From: Myxococcota bacterium
Lineage (GTDB): Bacteria > Myxococcota_A > UBA9160 > PR03
Length of the DNA: 38,440 bases
Direction of reading: 5' to 3'
Assembly (NCBI GenBank): GCA_028284525.1
Contig: JANQRO010000162.1
Location: 1-38,440, forward strand
The notes under the pieces: generated by a model
The model's database searches: none
What the model was told of the DNA's origin: nothing
Seen by the model: the letters and a program-made list of their open reading frames with translations, nothing else
Program-made: the position numbers and the translations under genes
In this document: positions 5,869 through 36,560 of the stretch, piece after piece
Layout: every line of letters starts with the position of its first letter
Position numbering within the stretch: position 1 is the first letter of the stretch

Positions 5869-6201
5869 CTAGTACCCCCGGCGCTCCATCGTGACGCGAC
5901 CGACGTCGTAGCCGTCGACGACCTGGACCTGCCCGAAGAGCTCGATCGCGGGCGCCACCTCGGCCAGCGCCCAGGTGAGCTGGAGCAGGGGCCGGTCGCG
6001 TTCGGCGATCTCCGCGAGGGGGACCTTGTCGAGGTACGCGAGGATCGATTCGAGACGCGGCAGCACGCCGTCGTAGAGCGTCTTGAGTTCCTCGAAGCTG
6101 CTCGCCTGACGCTTTGCGCAGCGCTCGGTCTCGGTCTCGTAGCACCAGTCCGCGAATCGCTCGAGGTCGCGGAACTCCTCCGGCCAGGTCGACTCAGCCA
6201 C
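5869..6201 (-). CDS. Small conserved partner of Rieske oxygenase (unknown function)
   Basis: A 110-residue, mostly helical protein beginning MAESTWPEEFRDLERFADWC and ending in a GYDVGRV strand. Its GTG start at 6201 lies inside the last codons of the Rieske gene, an 8-base overlap that implies coupled translation. From memory, similar small proteins (a PEEF.DLERFADWA-like start and an LAEVAPAIELF segment) sit next to Rieske-type hydroxylases in other bacteria, but no function is established. It is too short and too different to be the usual beta subunit (about 180 residues, SnoaL-like fold), and it has no cysteine pattern for a ferredoxin. A structural or substrate-handling accessory role is inference. 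Confidence 0.75.
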   Translation of the reverse strand: MAESTWPEEFRDLERFADWCYETETERCAKRQASSFEELKTLYDGVLPRLESILAYLDKVPLAEIAERDRPLLQLTWALAEVAPAIELFGQVQVVDGYDVGRVTMERRGY

Positions 6202-7519
6202 GGCTCGCTCCGTTGCCGTTCGCTCCGTTCCCGGTGGGGCCGTGGGAGCGCGACGGGGTCGCGAGGGGTCGGCCGTGGATCATCTGATCGACCACGTAGT
6301 GGCTGTGGCGCACCAGGATCTCCTCGTCCTGGATCGGGAACTCGGTCTTCGCCCCGGAGCGCAGCATCGATTGGGTCTGCTCGAGGGTGTTGCCGTCCTC
6401 GAGGATGATGTCCCGGAAGAGCACGTGGCCGTATTCCTGGTTGTAACGCTGACCGGCGGTCTCGGGCTTCGGGAAGTATTGGGTCGAGGTCCAGATCGTG
6501 CGGTCGACGTCGAGGGGCCAGAAATTGTGGGTGAAGTACGAGCCCTCCGAGACGTCGACGAAGAAGCAGGGGAAGATCACGTTCAGGTCGAGCACCCAGT
6601 CCTTCTCATCGGTGGGGTTGACGCTCGGCGGCAGGTTGCCCGCGTCGAAATCCTTGCGCAGCAGGAAGGCCCCGTGTCGGAAGGCGATCGCGGCGGCGGG
6701 GCTCGGCTGGATCTCGGCGTTGCCCCACAGCGACGCGCTGCCGTGACGCGGGTAGAGCCGGAGGTCGAGGATGTGTTGGTGCGGGTTGCCCGGCCCCGTG
6801 AACGAGTCGGGGATCGAGGTCTTGTGGAGGAACGCGACGTGGTAGGTCTCCTGGAAGGCGTCCTTCACCGCCTTCCAGTTGGCGCGGACCTCGGTCGACC
6901 AGGACGCGCAGGCCCCCGAGAACTCGCCAAAGGGGTAGCCCGTGAGGCTTTCGCCCATCCCGCCGAGGTACTCCGCCAGGGTCTCTTCGGGTGCGGGATC
7001 GACGTTGACGAAGATGAACCCCTCCCAGACGTCGCAGGCGACGGGTGCCATGCCGTGGTCACCGCGCTGGAAGTCGAAGAAGTGCTCTTCGTCGGGCACG
7101 TGACGAAGCTCGCCGTCGAGCCCGTACACCCAGCCGTGGAACTTGCAGGTGAAGCTCTTTCGGTTGCCCGCCCGATCCCAGCAGACCTTGTTGCCCCGAT
7201 GCGAGCACATGTTGTGGAAGGCGCGCACGGCGCCGTCGGCCCCGCGCACCACCAGGATCGAGGTTTCGCACATGGCGATGTCGAACACGAAGAAGTCGCC
7301 GGCGCTGGGCACCTGCTCGATCCGGCCCACGTTGAGCCACACCTTCTTGAAGATGTGCTCGCGCTCGAGCTCGAACTGCTCTTTCGACGTGAACACGTCC
7401 GCGGGCAGCGGGCCCGTGCCCAGGTGGGGGTAGCGGCTCGTCCACTTGGCGCGGCCGCTGCGCGGGGGAGGCTGCGGCGTGGCGGATCCGTTCGCGTTGG
7501 TGGTCGCGGTGGCGCTCAT
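6194..7519 (-). CDS. Rieske 2Fe-2S aromatic-ring-hydroxylating-type oxygenase, alpha subunit
   Basis: A 441-residue Rieske non-heme iron oxygenase. The Rieske cluster ligands are C105-S-H107 and C125-K-F-H128. The catalytic domain has NWKAVKDAFQETYHVAFLH, giving the bridging D220 and the iron ligands H227 and H232 with E224 between them. The length matches single-component alpha subunits. The ATG at 7519 is chosen for its GAGGAG site eight bases upstream; the frame is open further 5' but only with non-protein-like sequence. No ferredoxin or reductase gene is nearby, so electrons must come from elsewhere in the genome. The substrate is unknown; the surrounding BVMO, SDR and hydrolase genes suggest a cyclic or hydrophobic compound. 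The 3' end overlaps its small partner gene. Confidence 0.93.
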   Translation of the reverse strand: MSATATTNANGSATPQPPPRSGRAKWTSRYPHLGTGPLPADVFTSKEQFELEREHIFKKVWLNVGRIEQVPSAGDFFVFDIAMCETSILVVRGADGAVRAFHNMCSHRGNKVCWDRAGNRKSFTCKFHGWVYGLDGELRHVPDEEHFFDFQRGDHGMAPVACDVWEGFIFVNVDPAPEETLAEYLGGMGESLTGYPFGEFSGACASWSTEVRANWKAVKDAFQETYHVAFLHKTSIPDSFTGPGNPHQHILDLRLYPRHGSASLWGNAEIQPSPAAAIAFRHGAFLLRKDFDAGNLPPSVNPTDEKDWVLDLNVIFPCFFVDVSEGSYFTHNFWPLDVDRTIWTSTQYFPKPETAGQRYNQEYGHVLFRDIILEDGNTLEQTQSMLRSGAKTEFPIQDEEILVRHSHYVVDQMIHGRPLATPSRSHGPTGNGANGNGASRG

Positions 7520-7976
7520 GGTCGCTCTCCTCGAACCGTGGTCGGGTCGGCCGGGCCGGGATGGCCTCGGCAGCCTCGCATCATAGCCCGAAACCAGAGG
7601 AGGGAGAGATGGCGGCCGAAGACGTCGCTCCTCGACTTCGCTCGCGTGCTCGGAGCCGCTCCCCACGACAGGTGATCGCAGCGGACACCCGAGGTGCTCT
7701 GCTGGCTGGCGGTCGGCGACCACCCGTGGCCGAACGGCCAACACCGATCGTCGACGGCGGGTGGACGGCCAGGGCTCCAGTCGTGCTGGATCGACCGCTC
7801 TCCCTCGGCCCCGCGACAGAGCCACGGCTTGGCTGCGCGCGTCGTGCCCATCGGGCGCACACGCGTTGCGCGTGCGCTCCGCCGAGCGCGAGGCCGCGCT
7901 ACAGGGGCGTCCTCCGCCGGTCGATTTCTGGGGTGGCCCCGCGCGGCGGACGCCGCCGGGCCCCAAGGAGGAACCC
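7520..7976. other. Divergent intergenic region between Rieske gene and DUF2188 gene
   Basis: 457 bases. A 126-codon frame starts at 7609 behind a purine-rich GGAGGGAGAG, but its product is an arginine/proline run without protein-like pattern and it overlaps the DUF2188 start; it is not called. An imperfect dyad of GCGCAC/GTGCGC lies near 7856-7880. Promoters for both divergent genes must be here but none is clear. Confidence 0.5.
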
Positions 7977-8183
7977 ATGCCGAAGATGATGTCCTACGTC
8001 GTTCGCAGCTCTCCCGATGGCTGGATGGTGCAGCGCGAGGGGAAGAAGAGCCCCGAGAGCACCCACCGCAAGAAGGACGTGGCGGTTCGCAAGGGCCGCT
8101 CGCTGGCCAAACGCGCCCGCGGCGTCCTCAAGATCAAGGGGCGGAACGGGAAGATCCAGGCCAAACGCAGCTACGCGGCCTAG
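7977..8183 (+). CDS. DUF2188 family small basic protein
   Basis: A 68-residue, lysine/arginine-rich protein. The start ATG at 7977 follows a near-perfect AAGGAGG (7965-7971) by five bases. The sequence reads YVVRSSPDGWMVQREGKKSP, then a helix of the AVRKGRSLAKRARG type, then a final strand pair ending GRNGKIQAKRSYA. This strand-strand-helix-strand layout with PDGW.V..EG is the DUF2188 pattern. Its function is unknown; the positive charge would allow nucleic-acid contact, which is only a guess. It stands alone, flanked by a divergent Rieske gene and a hairpin just after its stop. Confidence 0.85.
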   Translation: MPKMMSYVVRSSPDGWMVQREGKKSPESTHRKKDVAVRKGRSLAKRARGVLKIKGRNGKIQAKRSYAA

Positions 8184-16678: not shown

Positions 16679-18274
16679 TCAGCTCAACGCAAACCCCTCG
16701 TAGCCGCTGGCCTCTTCGTGGGCGCACTTCTCGCGGTAGGCCGGGCCGCCTCCCGCGTAGAACAAGAAGGCGCGTGGCTTGCCCGGGATGTTGCTCCCAA
16801 AGAACCAGGTGTTCACGTCCGAGCGCAGCATGTTCTTGATCAGCGAGTCGGCGTGTTTCGTCCATCCCTCTTCCGCTTCGGGGGTGGCCTCGATCCGCTC
16901 GTAGCCCTTCTCGCGGAGGTAGCCGATACACCGGCTCACGAACTCCGCCGTCACCTCGGCGCAACGGGTGAAGTTGCAAAAGACCGCTCCGTTCTCGATG
17001 AAGAAGTTCGGAAAGCCCACGGTTTGGAGCCCCATATAGGTGCGCGGCCCCTCGGCCCAGCGCTCCTGGATGGTCTGGCCGTCCACCCCGCGCAGGTCGA
17101 TCCGGGTGATCTCCCCGGTGACCGCGTCGAAGCCCGTCGCATAGACGATGACGTCGAGCTCGTACTCGGCGTCCGCGGTCTTCACCCCCTTCGCCGTGAT
17201 GCGCTCGATCGGCGCCTCGCGGACGTCCACCAGCAGGACGTTGTCGCGGTTGTAGGTCTCGTAGTAGTCGGTTTCGAGGGGGATGCGTTTGGCGCCGAAG
17301 TAGTGGTCCTTGGGGCAGAGCTTCTCGGCGACCGCCGGGTCGTCGACCCGCTCGCGGATCTTCTTGCGGACGAACTTGCAGTACTCCTCGTTGGCCTCGG
17401 GGTTCGTCATCAGGTCCTTGAAGTTCCCGAACCACTTCTTGAACCCCGGTTGGGCCCAGATCTCCTCGTAGAAGGCCTCGCGTTCTTCGGGGCCGACATC
17501 GAAGGTCGCGCGGGGGTCGGGCTCGTGGATGAACCCGGCCACGGTCTGGTTGCAGCGTTCGAAGATCTCGGGGTAGGAGCGTTTGATCTCGGCCTGACGC
17601 TTCGGGGTGATCTGCGCGTTGCGCAGCGGCGCACAGTAGTTGGGGGTGCGCTGGAACACCGTCAAGTGTCCGCAGGCCTCGGCCACGTGGGGGATGAGCT
17701 GGACCGCCGTCGCCCCCGTCCCGATCACACCCACCCGTTTGCCGGCGAAGTCGACCGGGTCCGCGGGCCAGCGCGAGGTGTGGAAGGACTCGCCGGCGAA
17801 GTCGGCGATGCCCGGGATGTCGGGCATGTGGGTGGCCGAGAGGATGCCCACCGCCGCGATCAGGTGCTGGGTGCGCGCGCGGCGCCCGCTCTCGGTCTCG
17901 ACGTCCCAACGGTTGGCCGTCTCGTCGAAGATGGCCGATTTCACGCGCTCGCCCAGCCGGATGTGGGGCCGCAGCTCGAACTTGTCCGCCATGAAGTTCA
18001 GGTACTGCTCGTTCTCGGGCTGCCCCGAGAACTCCTCCTTCCAGTCCCACTCCTGGAGGAGCTCCTCGGAGAAGCTGTAGGCGTAGGAGACGCTCTCCGA
18101 GTCGAAGCGCGCGCCGGGGTAGCGGTTCCAGTACCAGGTGCCGCCGACCCCGTCCCCCGCCTCGTAGATCTTGACGCGGAGGCCCCGCTGCAGGAGACAG
18201 TAGAGCTGGTAGAGACCGGTGACCCCGGCGCCGATCACCAGGGCGTCGAGCTCTTCGGGTGCGCTCTTCGACAC
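16679..18274 (-). CDS. Baeyer-Villiger monooxygenase, type I, short form
   Basis: A 531-residue FAD/NADPH monooxygenase of the cyclohexanone-monooxygenase-like size class. FAD motif GAGVTG (15-20), GGTWYWNRYPGARFD (44-58), the full BVMO fingerprint F159-AG-ESF-H165-TSR-W169-P170, and NADPH motif GTGATA (185-190) are all present. The C terminus carries YATGFDAVTGEI, where the family has its conserved ATG-[FW]-D. The product of such enzymes is an ester or lactone. It is preceded by a GST gene with a 13-base gap and followed by the heme-c lipoprotein, giving a three-gene operon on the minus strand. It is clearly a different subfamily from the long BVMO at 12720-14549, so the two probably have different substrates. 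Confidence 0.94.
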   Translation of the reverse strand: MSKSAPEELDALVIGAGVTGLYQLYCLLQRGLRVKIYEAGDGVGGTWYWNRYPGARFDSESVSYAYSFSEELLQEWDWKEEFSGQPENEQYLNFMADKFELRPHIRLGERVKSAIFDETANRWDVETESGRRARTQHLIAAVGILSATHMPDIPGIADFAGESFHTSRWPADPVDFAGKRVGVIGTGATAVQLIPHVAEACGHLTVFQRTPNYCAPLRNAQITPKRQAEIKRSYPEIFERCNQTVAGFIHEPDPRATFDVGPEEREAFYEEIWAQPGFKKWFGNFKDLMTNPEANEEYCKFVRKKIRERVDDPAVAEKLCPKDHYFGAKRIPLETDYYETYNRDNVLLVDVREAPIERITAKGVKTADAEYELDVIVYATGFDAVTGEITRIDLRGVDGQTIQERWAEGPRTYMGLQTVGFPNFFIENGAVFCNFTRCAEVTAEFVSRCIGYLREKGYERIEATPEAEEGWTKHADSLIKNMLRSDVNTWFFGSNIPGKPRAFLFYAGGGPAYREKCAHEEASGYEGFALS

Positions 18275-21452: not shown

Positions 21453-22331
21453 TTAGCGGTAGTGCTCGACGGTGGGCGCCCAGAAGTCGAGAAACTTCAG
21501 CACGGCCTCCTCGTCGTGGAGGTCGAAGGCGGGCGGCCCGACCACGACCCGCTCGACACCGAGCTCGGCGTAGCTGTCGAGTCGTTCTCGCGGCGGCTTG
21601 CCCCACGCGAAGATCGTGATGCCGATCGCGCTCGGGTCGCGCCCCGCCTCCGACGCGAGTCGCCGGAAGTACCCGACCCGGTCAGGGATGTCGGGGCGTC
21701 CCTGGTCGTTCTTCAACCCCGCGTCGATCGGGCACCAGTGGTCGGCGTACTCGGCGGCGTGTTGGATGCCGATCGGGCCCGCGTTGCCGAGGGCGATCGG
21801 GATGCTGGGCTGCACCGGCTTGGGGTACACCCACGACTCGGAGAAGCGCTCCCAACGCCCCGCGTAGGCCGGGGTCTCCTCGCGCCAGATCGTGCGCAAC
21901 GCATCCACCCGCTCGCGCATCGCCTTGTAGCGCAGGGCAAAGGGGAGGTCGGGCCGGTGGTGCGCGAGCTCCTCGGCGTTCCACCCGACCCCGATCCCCA
22001 GCAGCAGCCGACCTTCGGAGAGCACGTCCACCGTCGCGGTCGTGCACGCGAGGTCGAGGAGGTCGTGCTCGAGGAGGAGACAGATCCCCGTCGCCAGAAT
22101 CAGCGAATCGGTCGCTTCCGCAGCCGCCGCGAGGGACGTGAAGGGGTCCATCATGTTCCAGTACCCCGGCGGCAGCTCTCCGCCGCCGGGGTAAGGCGAC
22201 ACCCGCGAGGTCGGAATGTGGCTGTGCTCGGGGACCCAGATCGAGTCGAAGCCGCGGTCCTCGAGGGCGCGCGCGGCCTTGGCGGGAGAGATGCCCGAAG
22301 CGTGATTGAGCGAGAGGTAGCCGAAACGCAT
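21453..22331 (-). CDS. LLM-class (luciferase-like) flavin/F420-dependent oxidoreductase
   Basis: A 292-residue TIM-barrel protein of the bacterial luciferase superfamily. MRFGYLSLNHASGISPAKAA, FDSIWVPEHSHIP and LLGIGVGWNAEELAHH are hallmarks of the actinobacterial-type F420-dependent members of about 290 residues. The cofactor may be F420 or FMN; sequence alone does not decide. The ATG at 22331 is preceded only six bases upstream by TATCAT, so the mRNA may lack a leader and no ribosome binding site is seen. It heads an operon with a hydrolase and a PPOX protein. Confidence 0.9.
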   Translation of the reverse strand: MRFGYLSLNHASGISPAKAARALEDRGFDSIWVPEHSHIPTSRVSPYPGGGELPPGYWNMMDPFTSLAAAAEATDSLILATGICLLLEHDLLDLACTTATVDVLSEGRLLLGIGVGWNAEELAHHRPDLPFALRYKAMRERVDALRTIWREETPAYAGRWERFSESWVYPKPVQPSIPIALGNAGPIGIQHAAEYADHWCPIDAGLKNDQGRPDIPDRVGYFRRLASEAGRDPSAIGITIFAWGKPPRERLDSYAELGVERVVVGPPAFDLHDEEAVLKFLDFWAPTVEHYR

Positions 22332-22337
22332 GGCGCG

Positions 22338-22343
22338 ATGATA
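22338..22343 (-). promoter_or_regulatory. -10-like TATCAT six bases before the LLM start codon
   Basis: On the minus strand the sequence reads TATCAT-CGCGCC-ATG. A sigma-70-type start would fall at or next to the ATG, giving a leaderless or nearly leaderless mRNA. The same arrangement, with the same CGCGCC spacer, occurs at 36561-36572. Confidence 0.45.
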
Positions 22344-22474
22344 CAGAGCGCCGCCCCCGGGATCCCCCCAGATCGGATCGCGGGCCACGACACGTCGACT
22401 CCGCGCGCGCTGGCACCGGTGCTCGATGCGCGCTCGAGCGACGCCCGAGCGCGCCGCTACGCTCCCGCGCCGGA

Positions 22475-23293
22475 ATGTCCCCTCCCGCACTGGCCCACGA
22501 GCTCCACCCCGGCCCCGCCGACGCGCCCTTTCTGCTGATGGTGCACGGGATGATGTCGAGCCGCGCCCAGTGGGGCCCGAACCTCGCGGCGCTCTCCCGG
22601 GTGGTGCGGCCCGTAGTCGTCGAGCTCTGGGGGCACGGCCGCTCGCCTAGCCCCGACGATCCGGCGGCGTATACCCCCGACGCGTACCTCCGCGCTTTCG
22701 AGGCCCTCCGCGGCGAGCTCGGCGCCGAGCGCTGGATGCTCTGCGGCCAGTCGTTCGGCGCGACCCTCACGATCCGCTACGCGCTGCGCTTCCCGGAGCG
22801 CGTCCTCGCCCAGGTCTTCACCAACTCGGTCTCGGCGCTGGTCGGCCCCGACGCCGAGGCGCGCGCGCGACGCGGGGTCGCGAAGATGGCCGCGGCCGTG
22901 GAGGCCCGCGGGCGGGCGGCGATCGACGCGCACCCGCCTCACCCCCGCAACGCCCGACGGCTCTCCCCGGCGATCCAGGATGCGCTGGTGCGCGACGCCG
23001 ATGCGCTCGACCCCGCCGGGCTGGTCCATCACCTCCGGGTGACGGCGCCGGTCGCGTCGCTCCACGCCGAGGTCGGGCGTCTGCGTGTCCCGACCCTCCT
23101 CGTGTGTGGCGAGCGCGAGGGGCGCTTCGAGCGCTACCGGCGTTTCGCCGGGCAGACGATCCCCGGGCTCGAGGTGGCGGGGCTCGAGGCCGGCCACGCG
23201 GTGAACCTCGAGGCGGCGGCGGGCTTCGACGACGCGGTCACGGCCTTCCTGGGCCGACATCTCCCGTCGCGGCCACGCGACGAGGGGGTCTAG
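22475..23293 (+). CDS. Alpha/beta hydrolase
   Basis: A 272-residue canonical alpha/beta hydrolase: oxyanion loop VHGMMSSRAQW (23-33), ELWGHGRSPSP (50-60), nucleophile S93 in GQSFG, and catalytic H241 in AGHAVN. The acid position reads CGEREGRF, with glutamate rather than the usual aspartate. The fold marks are those of haloperoxidase-like or meta-cleavage-product-like hydrolases, but the substrate is unknown. No ribosome binding site is visible, and a TACGCT hexamer ends 11 bases before the ATG, so a very short leader is likely. Its stop shares the CTAG palindrome with the convergent amidohydrolase. Confidence 0.88.
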   Translation: MSPPALAHELHPGPADAPFLLMVHGMMSSRAQWGPNLAALSRVVRPVVVELWGHGRSPSPDDPAAYTPDAYLRAFEALRGELGAERWMLCGQSFGATLTIRYALRFPERVLAQVFTNSVSALVGPDAEARARRGVAKMAAAVEARGRAAIDAHPPHPRNARRLSPAIQDALVRDADALDPAGLVHHLRVTAPVASLHAEVGRLRVPTLLVCGEREGRFERYRRFAGQTIPGLEVAGLEAGHAVNLEAAAGFDDAVTAFLGRHLPSRPRDEGV

Positions 23294-29709: not shown

Positions 29710-30090
29710 CAAGCGCAGCGGCGGCAGCCGCGGAGCGCGCAGCGTGGGCGAAGCCCACGCGAAGTCAGACAGCGGGACACCGCAGATCTGGGCGCACCGA
29801 GCGGCAAGCGCAGCGGCGGCAGCCGCGGAGCTCGCAGCGTAGGCGACGCCCACGCGAAGTCAGACGGCGTCAAGCGCAGCGGCGGCAGCCGCGGAGCGCG
29901 CAGCGTGGGCGAAGCCCACGCGAAGTCATACAGCGGGACACCGCAGAGCTGGGCGCACCGAGCGTCAAGCGCAGCGGCGGCAGCGGCGGAGCGCGCAGCG
30001 TGGGCGACGCCCACGCGAAGTCAGACAGCGTCAAGCGCAGCGGCGGCAGCCGCCGCGCAGCGTGGGCGACGCCCACGCGAAGTCGCACAG
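29710..30090. repeat. Tandem palindromic-repeat array (about 161-bp superunit)
   Basis: Five copies (R1-R5) of a 59-66-bp unit that starts CAAGCGCAGCGGCGGCAG begin at 29710, 29805, 29871, 29966 and 30032. A 30-bp spacer (S) starting GGACACCGCAGA follows R1 and R3. The order is R-S-R, R-S-R, R: two exact-length 161-bp superunits (29710-29870 and 29871-30031) plus a last copy lacking four bases. R1 and R3 differ by one base. Each R holds a strong dyad, GTGGGC-GAA-GCCCAC in odd copies and GTGGGCG-A-CGCCCAC in R4 and R5 (R2 has one mismatch). The array fills the gap between two convergent genes and probably forms bidirectional hairpins. No open protein is credible, although the minus strand repeats the peptide DFAWASPTLRAPRLPPLRL. 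Confidence 0.9.
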
Positions 30091-30099
30091 CTCGAGACC

Positions 30100-33219: not shown

Positions 33220-34275
33220 ATGCGATTCGGGATCTTCTCCACCGTCACCAAAGCCGACGAGCGCAGCGTCCAACAGCTCTTTCGCGAGAACCTCGAGCAG
33301 GTGGAGCTCGCCGAACGGCTCGGCTACGACAGCTTCTGGTTCGCCGAGCACCACTTCTCCACCTACAGCATGATCGCCTCGCCCAACCTGATGGTGGCGT
33401 CGGCGGCGCAGCGCACCGAACGCATCAAGCTCGGCCCGGCGGTGAATGTCTTGCCCTTCCACCACCCGATCCGGCTGGCGGAAGAGGGCGCCATGCTCGA
33501 CATGATGAGCGACGGCCGTCTGCTCTGGGGCATCGGGCGTGGCATCCAGCTCGGCGAGTTCGTGCCTTGGGAGGTGGACCCCGAGCAGAGCCGCGAGATC
33601 TTCGACGAGACCCACCAGGCGGTGATCCGCGCCTGGACCCAGCCCTCTTTCTCCTACGAGGGCCGACACATCCACGTGCCCGAGACGAGCCTCGAGATCC
33701 GCCCGGTGCAGCAGCCCCACCCCCCGGTCTGGACCGCGGGTCTTTCGGAACCCTCGGTGCGCTGGGCAGCGTGGCGGAACTACCCGATCATGGAGGTCTA
33801 CACACTGCTCCCCACCATGCAGCAGCACTGGGAGATCTACCAGAAGGTGAGCGCCGAGTGCGGCCACACGATCGACCACGTGGGGCTCGTCCCGACCCGC
33901 CACGTCTACCTGGCCGAAAGCGATGAGCGGGCCAAGGCCGAGGTGCTGCCGACCCTCGCCACCCGCTGGGAGCAACTCCTCAAACTCGCCAAGCCGGACG
34001 AGACCGCCCAGACGGCCTCCTTCGAATACCTGAAGGGCACCTTCGACGCGGCGGCCCGGGGCGATCTGAGCGAGCTGATGGACCTCGGGATGCTCCTGAT
34101 CGGCACCCCCGAGACGGCGATCCGTCTGATCAAGCGTCACCAGGAGTTCCTTCCACAGCTCCAGTACATGATCCTCTTCTTCGCCTACGGAACTCTCACC
34201 CAGGCCCAGATCTGCAACTCGATGCGCCTCTTCGCGGAAGAGGTGATGCCCGAATTCTCGGAGGAGACCCGATGA
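33220..34275 (+). CDS. LLM-class flavin-dependent monooxygenase (luciferase-like)
   Basis: A 351-residue TIM-barrel flavoprotein of the bacterial luciferase superfamily. FGIFSTVTKADERSVQQLF, YDSFWFAEHHFSTYSMIASP and LWGIGRGIQLGEFVPWEVDP are typical of two-component, FMNH2-using members. The family reaction inserts one oxygen next to a carbonyl, sulfonate or other group, or adds hydroperoxide to an aldehyde. A TAGACT (33189-33194) and a GGGAGCGG site precede the ATG. Its stop overlaps the start of the next gene (ATGA), which with the following two genes makes a four-gene set likely to act together. Confidence 0.93.
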   Translation: MRFGIFSTVTKADERSVQQLFRENLEQVELAERLGYDSFWFAEHHFSTYSMIASPNLMVASAAQRTERIKLGPAVNVLPFHHPIRLAEEGAMLDMMSDGRLLWGIGRGIQLGEFVPWEVDPEQSREIFDETHQAVIRAWTQPSFSYEGRHIHVPETSLEIRPVQQPHPPVWTAGLSEPSVRWAAWRNYPIMEVYTLLPTMQQHWEIYQKVSAECGHTIDHVGLVPTRHVYLAESDERAKAEVLPTLATRWEQLLKLAKPDETAQTASFEYLKGTFDAAARGDLSELMDLGMLLIGTPETAIRLIKRHQEFLPQLQYMILFFAYGTLTQAQICNSMRLFAEEVMPEFSEETR

Positions 34276-34934
34276 GCGCGACGACACCCTGGTTCGGCAC
34301 CCCCCGGGACCCCGGGGTGGTGCCGATCAAGAAGAACCTCTTCGAAGAGGTGATCCACGCCACCGGAGACCTCGAGCTGGTCCCGGTGTTCCCCTACCTG
34401 GGGGACGGCGCCATCGTGCCCTGTCTCAGCTACGCGATGGGCGGTGGCGGCGCCAAGAAGTTTCAGTTCTTTCACGCCAACGACGTGCCCGAGGTGATGA
34501 TCTGTCTCTCCGAGCACAACAGCGCGCTGCGCGCCGGCATGTTGATGTCCTTCCCCGACCTCCACGGGGTGAACAATTTCCTGAAGGACGTCGACGACGA
34601 AGACGCCTACATGCTGGTGGTGGTCGCCATCCGCATGCGGGAGGGTGCGCAACACGAGGGCTTCCTGATGCGCTGTCGCGAGTGCAACGAGCCGGTGTTC
34701 CGCCTCGACCGCGACATCAAGGAGGGACCCGAGCGCCCCTACTACCCCGAGTTCTACGCGTTGCGGCTCTACGCCGATGCCGTCGACCAGTTCAACGCCT
34801 CCGACCGCACCTGCGCCAAGTGCGGGACGGTCCAGGAGCCCTTCCCCCAGGACCAGCTCGGCTGGAAGCGCTACGCGCGTCAGGTCGAGCTGGCCAACCG
34901 CGCCCGCGCCGCCGTCGAAGCGCAGGGCGTCTGA
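34272..34934 (+). CDS. Zinc-ribbon/cupin-like protein resembling 3-hydroxyanthranilate dioxygenase, copy 1
   Basis: A 220-residue protein coupled to the LLM gene by an ATGA overlap. The C-terminal part has the paired cysteines of the extra metal site of bacterial 3-hydroxyanthranilate 3,4-dioxygenase: C135-RE-C138 and C181-AK-C184, separated by an aromatic helix (PYYPEFYALRLYADAVDQF). The N-terminal part (about 30-130) is strand-rich. Instead of the cupin H...E...H iron set it has FFHANDVPEVMICLSEH, so the dioxygenase iron site is not recognisable. The resemblance is one of layout and motif and is inferred, not proven. It probably forms a heteromer with the next gene's product and serves the LLM enzyme. 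Confidence 0.7.
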   Translation: MSATTPWFGTPRDPGVVPIKKNLFEEVIHATGDLELVPVFPYLGDGAIVPCLSYAMGGGGAKKFQFFHANDVPEVMICLSEHNSALRAGMLMSFPDLHGVNNFLKDVDDEDAYMLVVVAIRMREGAQHEGFLMRCRECNEPVFRLDRDIKEGPERPYYPEFYALRLYADAVDQFNASDRTCAKCGTVQEPFPQDQLGWKRYARQVELANRARAAVEAQGV

Positions 34935-34937
34935 GAC

Positions 34938-35504
34938 GTGGCCATGGAAGCCAAACGCGTCGTCCAGCTCTTCCAGGAGGCGGAGTCGGCCTGGGGCTCC
35001 TTCGACGACTTTCCGGCCCTCGAGCCTCGGGTCGACCCGATGCCCCACCTGAGCCGCAACACCGTCTCCCAGCCCTTCTACCTCGCGAGCGAGAGCGACC
35101 AGACCCTGGTGAACGTCTCGGGCGAAGGGGAGATCTGGTTCGCCGGCGAGCGTCCCGAGCGCATGCAGCTCGTCGCCGGGGACAGTGTCTACCTCCCGGC
35201 CGGGGTGCCGAGCCGCGTGATCACCCGCACCCCGAGTCTCCAGGTGCGTCTCAAGGCGCATCCCCCGGCGCGGGAGGCGGTGGCGTGGTACTGCCAAGCC
35301 TGTCAAGCGCTCGTGCACTGGCACGATGTCGGCGCCGACGTGGACGTGCCGCAGGACGAGTACTGGCGAGCGGTGGAGCACTTCAACCGCGACGAGGCGG
35401 CGCGCGCCTGCGGCGCCTGCGGCGCCGCCCATCCCCTCGCCGAGCTCGGCGACATCGCCTGGCCCGAGGTGGCCAAGGCGATCCGCGCGGCGCAGGAGAC
35501 CTAG
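34938..35504 (+). CDS. Zinc-ribbon/cupin-like protein resembling 3-hydroxyanthranilate dioxygenase, copy 2
   Basis: A 188-residue protein starting three bases after copy 1; GTG 34938 is better placed behind AGGGCG, with ATG 34944 as an alternative. It follows the 3-hydroxyanthranilate dioxygenase layout: QPFYLASESDQTLVNVSGEGEIWFAG as cupin strands, GDSVYLPAGVPSRV as the second cupin motif, and WYC119-QA-C122 ... C158-GA-C161-G-AAHP as the zinc-ribbon tail. The iron ligands are gone: no H-x-x-x-x-x-E in the first motif, and the histidine of PAGVPH is a serine. It is clearly a paralogue in type of copy 1. A binding or scaffold role within an LLM complex is the best inference; it is unlikely to cleave rings by itself. 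Confidence 0.75.
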   Translation: MAMEAKRVVQLFQEAESAWGSFDDFPALEPRVDPMPHLSRNTVSQPFYLASESDQTLVNVSGEGEIWFAGERPERMQLVAGDSVYLPAGVPSRVITRTPSLQVRLKAHPPAREAVAWYCQACQALVHWHDVGADVDVPQDEYWRAVEHFNRDEAARACGACGAAHPLAELGDIAWPEVAKAIRAAQET

Positions 35505-35553: not shown

Positions 35554-35994
35554 ATGGACTGGACCGTCTACCTCTCCGGGGAAATCCACACCGACTGGCG
35601 CGAGCGTATCGAGACCGGGGCGCGCGCGGCGGGGCTCCCGGTTCGCTTCACCTCGGCGGTCACCGACCACGCCGCCAGCGATGCGGCGGGGGACGTGCTC
35701 GGCAAGGAGCGCGAGCCCTTCTGGCGCGATCACAAGTCGTCGAAGGTGAACGGGATCCGCACCCGGACCCTCCTGGAGCAGTGCGACGTCGCGGTGATCC
35801 GCTTCGGCGACAAGTACAAGCAGTGGAACGCGGCCTTCGACGCCGGCTACTGCGCCGCCAAGGGGAAGCCCTACGTCACCCTCCACGACGAGGACATCGT
35901 CCACGCGCTGAAAGAGGTCGACGCGGCGGCCATGGCCTGGGCCCAGACCCCGGAGCAGGTGGTCGAGATCCTCCGCTACGTCACCCGCCTCTAG
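35554..35994 (+). CDS. ytoQ: YtoQ family protein (nucleoside-deoxyribosyltransferase-like fold)
   Basis: A 146-residue protein matching YtoQ almost throughout: VYLSGEIHTDWRERI, VRFTSAVTDHAASDAAGD, FWRDHKSSKVNGIRTRTLLE, RFGDKYKQWNAAFDAGY and EVDAAAMAWAQTPEQVVEIL. The fold is that of nucleoside 2-deoxyribosyltransferases, with the expected acidic and asparagine residues, but the physiological reaction of YtoQ is not established. It follows the LLM/zinc-ribbon genes by 49 bases on the same strand, which may or may not mean a shared role. Confidence 0.92.
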   Translation: MDWTVYLSGEIHTDWRERIETGARAAGLPVRFTSAVTDHAASDAAGDVLGKEREPFWRDHKSSKVNGIRTRTLLEQCDVAVIRFGDKYKQWNAAFDAGYCAAKGKPYVTLHDEDIVHALKEVDAAAMAWAQTPEQVVEILRYVTRL

Positions 35995-36044: not shown

Positions 36045-36560
36045 CTAACGACGCTTCAGCTCCACCACCGGGATCGTCCGCTCGGTGTTCTTCTGGTACT
36101 TGGCGAAGATCGGCATTCCCGCGCAGATCTGCTCGAACAGATGATCGCGGTCGCTCCCCGCGGTCACCGCGGCGCGCGCCGGAAAGGTCTCGCCGTCGAG
36201 CTCGACCTCGACGTCCGGGTGCGCGACGAGGTTGTGGTACCAGGGCGGGTTGCGCACCGACCCCCCCATCGAGGCGATCAGCAACAAGCGATCGTCGACG
36301 CGGGCGTAGGCGAGGGGGACCGTGCGTCGGGCGCCGCTCTTGGCACCGGTGGTCGTGAGGATCAGACACGGCATCGCCGCGAGCTCCCCGGAGAGCTTGC
36401 CGCCGTTTTTCCGGAGCTCGGCCATCACGGCGTCGTTCACCTGCTGGGTGATCGTGCCCGCGCGCTTCCAGGCTGCGGAGCCGGGGCCGTCGTCGGCGGC
36501 GACCTGCTTGGACATCTTGATGAGTTCGTCGTTGGTGAGACGGAATGTGTCGTCTGCCAT
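36045..36560 (-). CDS. Nitroreductase/deazaflavin (F420)-dependent family protein, DDN-like
   Basis: A 171-residue split-barrel protein. LILTTTGAKSGARRTVPLAY and WYHNLVAHPDVEVEL with its WxHNLxxxP signature are the family marks. The extended N terminus (residues 1-45) is a charged helix bundle. It is a second, clearly different copy beside the one at 28208. TAGCAT (36567-36572) lies six bases upstream of the ATG with spacer CGCGCC, so the message may be leaderless. It probably reduces a quinone or nitro compound with F420H2, if this organism makes F420. Confidence 0.9.
   Translation of the reverse strand: MADDTFRLTNDELIKMSKQVAADDGPGSAAWKRAGTITQQVNDAVMAELRKNGGKLSGELAAMPCLILTTTGAKSGARRTVPLAYARVDDRLLLIASMGGSVRNPPWYHNLVAHPDVEVELDGETFPARAAVTAGSDRDHLFEQICAGMPIFAKYQKNTERTIPVVELKRR

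Follow-up and report, generated by a model that had tools for sequence, protein, structure and literature searches.

A conserved gene pair beside a luciferase-like monooxygenase gene of a Myxococcota bacterium may encode a two-subunit, iron-dependent cupin oxygenase

Three closely set genes in a Myxococcota contig

Do a luciferase-like monooxygenase (LLM) and two small cupin-like proteins encoded directly behind it form one enzyme, or do the two small proteins constitute an enzyme of their own? This question is raised by a locus in a 38,440-nucleotide contig of a Myxococcota bacterium, hereafter the window. The original prediction, made from the window's sequence alone, proposed a three-part oxygenase in which two iron-less relatives of 3-hydroxyanthranilate 3,4-dioxygenase (HAO), each with a zinc ribbon, would assist the LLM. 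The features considered here are as follows.

33220–34275, + strand: first gene of the operon, encoding the LLM, a luciferase-like (LuxA-type) flavin monooxygenase of 351 aa
34272–34934, + strand: copy 1, cupin subunit of the HAO fold (220 aa), metal motif present, putative catalytic subunit
34473–34493, + strand: copy 1 codons H68 to E74, H-x-N-x3-E motif, invariant in homologues (H68, 34473–34475; N70, 34479–34481; E74, 34491–34493)
34563–34565, + strand: copy 1 codon H98, invariant, putative third metal ligand
34674–34823, + strand: copy 1 Cys4 site (C135, C138, C181, C184), invariant
34938–35504, + strand: copy 2, HAO-like cupin of 188 aa, metal site apparently lost, putative non-catalytic partner subunit
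35292–35420, + strand: copy 2 Cys4 site (C119, C122, C158, C161), invariant

As predicted, the three genes are closely set and co-directional: the LLM gene and copy 1 share a four-base ATGA overlap (34272–34275), and a gap of three bases separates copy 1 from the GTG start codon of copy 2 at position 34938, a start that is backed by the alignment with the related locus L028. Both small genes are real, since both families are conserved across phyla, and the paralogy between the two copies is distant (E 1.6e-13).

The operon is directly followed by a gene for a YtoQ-family protein (35554–35994, + strand), and a convergent gene encodes a deazaflavin (F420)-type nitroreductase-family protein (36045–36560, − strand). 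Elsewhere, the window is rich in oxygenase genes, with a Rieske-motif protein (6197–7993), a Baeyer-Villiger-type flavoprotein identified by eye (16679–18274) and a second LLM (21453–22490), all on the minus strand. A GC-rich tandem repeat with units of 66 and 161 bases (29710–30091) is flanked by genes for an enoyl-CoA hydratase and an SDR.

Both copies resemble HAO in predicted fold

AlphaFold2 single-chain models of both proteins were confident (pLDDT 89.6 for copy 1 and 88.0 for copy 2), and with Foldseek the top PDB match of either copy was bacterial HAO, followed in the case of copy 2 by the small subunit of hydroquinone 1,2-dioxygenase (5m26_C, 4zxa_A). The predicted HAO-like layout was thus confirmed, for copy 2 also by direct sequence match (NF009763, 6.8e-11; PDB profile, 1.5e-10) and for copy 1 by profile comparison (E 1.1e-12). 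Searches against Pfam placed copy 1 in no family above cut-off and gave copy 2 only a sub-threshold match to Cupin_2. Like HAO/NbaC, both copies combine a cupin fold with a C-terminal Cys4 site, so that the paired CxxC motifs foreseen for the second and third proteins are indeed present in each. Membership in the HAO family itself was rejected, as both copies scored far below the curated cut-off of TIGR03037 (145.95 bits), with 35.2 bits for copy 2 and 12.9 bits for copy 1. Moreover, HAO is encoded by a single gene and carries an HxDx3E motif, whereas the pair comprises two co-dependent genes, one of them degenerate, and carries HxNx3E. The arginine of HAO's HSPQR motif is missing from copy 1 and, judged by this residue, the substrate of the pair is therefore probably not 3-hydroxyanthranilate.

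Zinc as the metal of the Cys4 ribbons was an assumption of the original prediction; each site would probably hold either rubredoxin-like iron or zinc. A rubredoxin iron has reportedly been described for a bacterial extradiol dioxygenase (reference 46 of PMC10143591), in a site that we take to be equivalent to the Cys4 site of HAO.

The metal motif is kept in copy 1

We collected homologues by genome searches, by a scan of genome contigs and from plasmids, and aligned 24 sequences per copy. In copy 1, H68, N70, E74, G89, H98 and the four cysteines were invariant in all 24 sequences. H68 and E74 align on the histidine and glutamate iron ligands of genuine HAOs (L073–L075), which were taken from some of the very genomes that carry the pair. 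H98 is offset by approximately two residues from the third ligand of HAO; its invariance, together with its strand in the structural model, points to it as the third metal ligand of copy 1. In copy 2 the Cys4 site was likewise invariant, whereas the metal positions varied (Y/H/F/W at position 48, Q/T/S/V/N at 55 and S/T/H at 92), and a serine, S92, occupies the place of HAO's last histidine ligand, the histidine of PAGVPH, precisely as had been noticed beforehand. The claim that both proteins lack the iron ligands consequently held for copy 2 and failed for copy 1, for which the invariant H68, N70, E74 and H98 led us to reject it. As far as can be read from the alignments, the metal site is lost in copy 2 only.

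The two copies behave as an obligate pair

In all, 27 genomes or records carry the pair, at 30 loci (the window, L005–L031, L071 and L072); many of these loci are contigs of metagenome-assembled genomes (MAGs), some with short flanks. The open reading frames of the related loci came from a simple caller, with tblastn and a profile search confirming the members of the pair. Copy 1 lies directly 5' of copy 2 at 28 of the 30 loci. An Eremiobacterota MAG carries a fusion of both in one 419-codon reading frame (L027:8001–9260), with the copy 2 half first and the second CxxC of this half eroded, and the genome of Enhygromyxa SWB007 has split the pair and kept both members, copy 2 directly after a gene for an SCO4226-like small protein (L008:7695–8549) and copy 1 on another contig (L110:6803–7642, − strand). 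The pairwise identities of the two copies were correlated (r = 0.77, a value reached in none of 5000 permutations), in part owing to how closely the species are related. The two copies hence behave as an obligate pair, and the earlier suggestion that they form a heteromer is probably correct, given the tandem arrangement, the fusion, the retention of both copies after the split and the correlated identities.

The hosts of the pair belong to Myxococcota, Pseudomonadota and Actinomycetota, and include MAGs of Chloroflexota and Eremiobacterota; Burkholderia sp. IMCC1007, Sphingobium sp. AntQ-1 and Phaeobacter gallaeciensis are among the carriers. The pair was present in 3 of 237 genomes of a phylum sample, in 6 of 318 genomes of the Minicystis class and in 2 of 346 of the Mycobacterium class; within the order, 2 of the 80 genomes searched matched clearly. 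This rare and patchy occurrence suggests horizontal spread. A scan of viral contigs yielded no copy 1.

The LLM gene is joined to the pair only in the window

The identification of the first gene as an LLM gene was borne out by a full-length match to PF00296 (9.6e-63; 212.8 bits vs a gathering score of 27.9) and by its nearest PDB chains, which are of the luciferase-alpha type. Compared with bacterial luciferase-like monooxygenases, the protein is a full-length, luciferase-alpha-like member that stays below each NCBIfam subfamily cut-off among the matches listed.

A conserved association of the pair with LLM genes, the absence of which was to count against the three-part proposal, was not found when we checked the gene neighbourhoods. 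The LLM adjoins the pair in the window alone, which rules it out as a conserved partner, and a profile search of the 30 loci found further LLM genes in L011 and L012 only, approximately 6.6 kb from the pair and on the opposite strand. In L028 and L071, the two nearest relatives, the slot of the LLM gene ahead of copy 1 is taken by an SCO4226-like gene; the pairs closest to that of the window are those of Minicystis (57% and 47%) and of G411/L071 (55% and 43%). Among 80 genomes of the order, no candidate orthologue of the LLM was closer than 39% identity; a search of 310 Minicystis-class genomes at 1e-60, run without positive control, gave no match, and on plasmids the identity was 34% at most. 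Because of the missing adjacent LLM elsewhere, the SCO4226-like gene in the nearest relatives and the lack of a close orthologue, the LLM gene is, by these sequence comparisons, a local addition to the pair, and the three-part enzyme therefore loses comparative support. A functional tie between the LLM and the pair that is local to the window's operon is possible, and the LLM probably works as a separate FMNH2-dependent monooxygenase.

The two Defluviicoccus MAGs with LLM genes near the pair show an arrangement of their own, in which the LLM gene is followed by a [2Fe-2S] ferredoxin-like reading frame and the gene of a third HAO-like ribbon protein (L011:14176–16286 and L012:14148–16231, both − strand). 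This third protein, encoded a few kb from the pair, also carries an H-x-N-x3-E motif (WHINDQQE), and no further relatives turned up in a draw of 337 genomes of the class.

Likeness to hydroquinone dioxygenase

Hydroquinone dioxygenase is a heterotetramer of two different cupin subunits, only one of which has a functional metal site (PMC10306065, PMC3222310). The pair resembles this type II hydroquinone 1,2-dioxygenase (PnpCD/HqdAB) in having two unlike cupin subunits, one with and one without an HxNx3E site, and we found the HxNx3E pattern also in five PnpD-type proteins from four genomes, all of which carry the pair. Membership in the PnpCD family was nevertheless rejected: a Pfam search did not match the N-terminal domain of PnpD (PF18191) in copy 1, and comparison of copy 1 with PnpD by hhalign gave an E of 0.27, that is, no profile similarity. 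Copy 1 is also shorter (220 aa, against approximately 350 for PnpD), and both copies of the pair carry Cys4 sites, unlike PnpCD. By analogy, the pair is best read as PnpCD-like in its way of working and outside the PnpCD family.

Proposed enzyme and competing explanations

Judging by the neighbouring genes, the pair often sits in aromatic-acid catabolic settings. An SCO4226-like small protein is encoded near it at 13 loci and a TAXI/NMT1-like protein at 10; the examples of the latter that we read had no obvious signal peptide, and we presume that this neighbour may be 4,5-dihydroxyphthalate-decarboxylase-like. Further recurrent neighbours are class II aldolase/dihydroxyphthalate-decarboxylase-like, FAH, VOC and MhpA-type proteins.

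We propose, with a probability of roughly 0.6, that the pair is a two-subunit, iron-dependent cupin oxygenase of the HAO fold, composed of a catalytic and a degenerate subunit, and that the LLM is separate from it. This reading is based on the invariant motif of copy 1 and the lost site of copy 2, the alignment with HAO and the structural models, the HxNx3E of PnpD, the pairing and the aromatic-catabolic neighbours. In the enzyme that we infer, copy 1 would bind the catalytic metal through H68, E74, H98 and probably N70, and copy 2 would be an obligate partner comparable to the small subunit of hydroquinone 1,2-dioxygenase. Together they would use O2 to oxidise an aromatic compound, probably a hydroxylated or carboxylated one, and the LLM would probably act before or after them in a short local catabolic route.

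Such an enzyme could be a plain ring-cleaving (extradiol-type) dioxygenase that, like HAO or PnpCD, takes no external electrons, and this version has a real, if less than even, chance of being right. Its nearest relatives in fold and sequence are ring-cleaving dioxygenases, and no redox gene was found in the searched flanks at 22 of the 30 loci, the window included (five of the 22 with less than approximately 3 kb on one side). At the other eight, electron-transfer genes lie within approximately 5.5 kb of the pair: a flavodoxin (L020, L022, L025, L026, L030), an HcaD/AndAa-type ferredoxin reductase (L022, L025, L030), an FdxA-type ferredoxin with a thioredoxin-reductase-like flavoprotein (L018, L023) and a VanB/BenC-type reductase that starts four bases 3' of copy 2 (L031). 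For a plain dioxygenase these could simply re-reduce the active-site iron or serve other enzymes, and XylT-type ferredoxins do re-reduce the oxidised iron of catechol 2,3-dioxygenase; however, the reductases of L022 and L031 lie within the same operon, and the clusters of L023, L026, L030 and L072 already contain a VOC extradiol-type gene. The two-subunit oxygenase might, more tentatively, depend on a reductase, in which case electrons from flavodoxin, ferredoxin or a VanB- or HcaD-type protein would reach the iron of copy 1, perhaps via the rubredoxin-like Cys4 site. The redox partners of four different kinds and the position of the L031 reductase argue for this version. So does a search for Rieske and P450 motifs in the flanks of L018, L022, L023, L025, L026, L030 and L031, which gave nothing convincing: L018 and L030 each had a single loose regex match, which overlaps another gene (in L030 one that is annotated as a permease and lies on the same strand). 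The absence of a redox gene from the flanks of most loci argues against it, and we know of no cupin oxygenase of this reductase-dependent kind. We also regard as rather doubtful a fuller scheme in which a cupin oxygenase draws on external electrons, with interchangeable flavodoxin, ferredoxin and reductase partners acting possibly via built-in rubredoxin-like centres, and an LLM that took the adjoining slot in the lineage of the window.

Cupins are diverse in function, and the pair could instead be a non-oxygenase enzyme (an isomerase, hydrolase or decarboxylase) of the same pathways; passages of a paper on riboflavin catabolism, in which LumY, a protein with a cupin annotation, functions downstream of ring opening (PMC12746152), count in favour of this. 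Given that the nearest relatives are dioxygenases and that redox partners recur, we consider it unlikely. The three-part flavin oxygenase of LLM and two iron-less cupins is very improbable: the overlapping genes of the window are probably co-translated, but copy 1 has kept its metal motif and the LLM is not beside the pair elsewhere.

Novelty and implications

The two-subunit oxygenase proposed here appears to lack a published counterpart, in line with the initial impression that the locus matched no described system. The open-access literature searched, a body that excludes most subscription journals, yielded no HAO-type oxygenase of two subunits with such features. Nor is the pair described in the passages searched of PMC9836352 (on an anthraquinone degrader), PMC10293998 (on a fusaric-acid degrader) and PMC12746152 (on riboflavin catabolism). 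On annotated plasmids both copies are entered as 'hypothetical protein'. The pair thus represents a widespread and apparently uncharacterised two-subunit enzyme that is often part of aromatic-degradation clusters. It would show the HAO fold evolving a split into a catalytic and a degenerate subunit that resembles the one in hydroquinone dioxygenase. If the link to the reductases is functional, it would also reveal a new way of driving O2 chemistry at a cupin iron, and an electron-fed enzyme would add another reductase-dependent architecture for aromatic oxygenation beside the Rieske and P450 systems.
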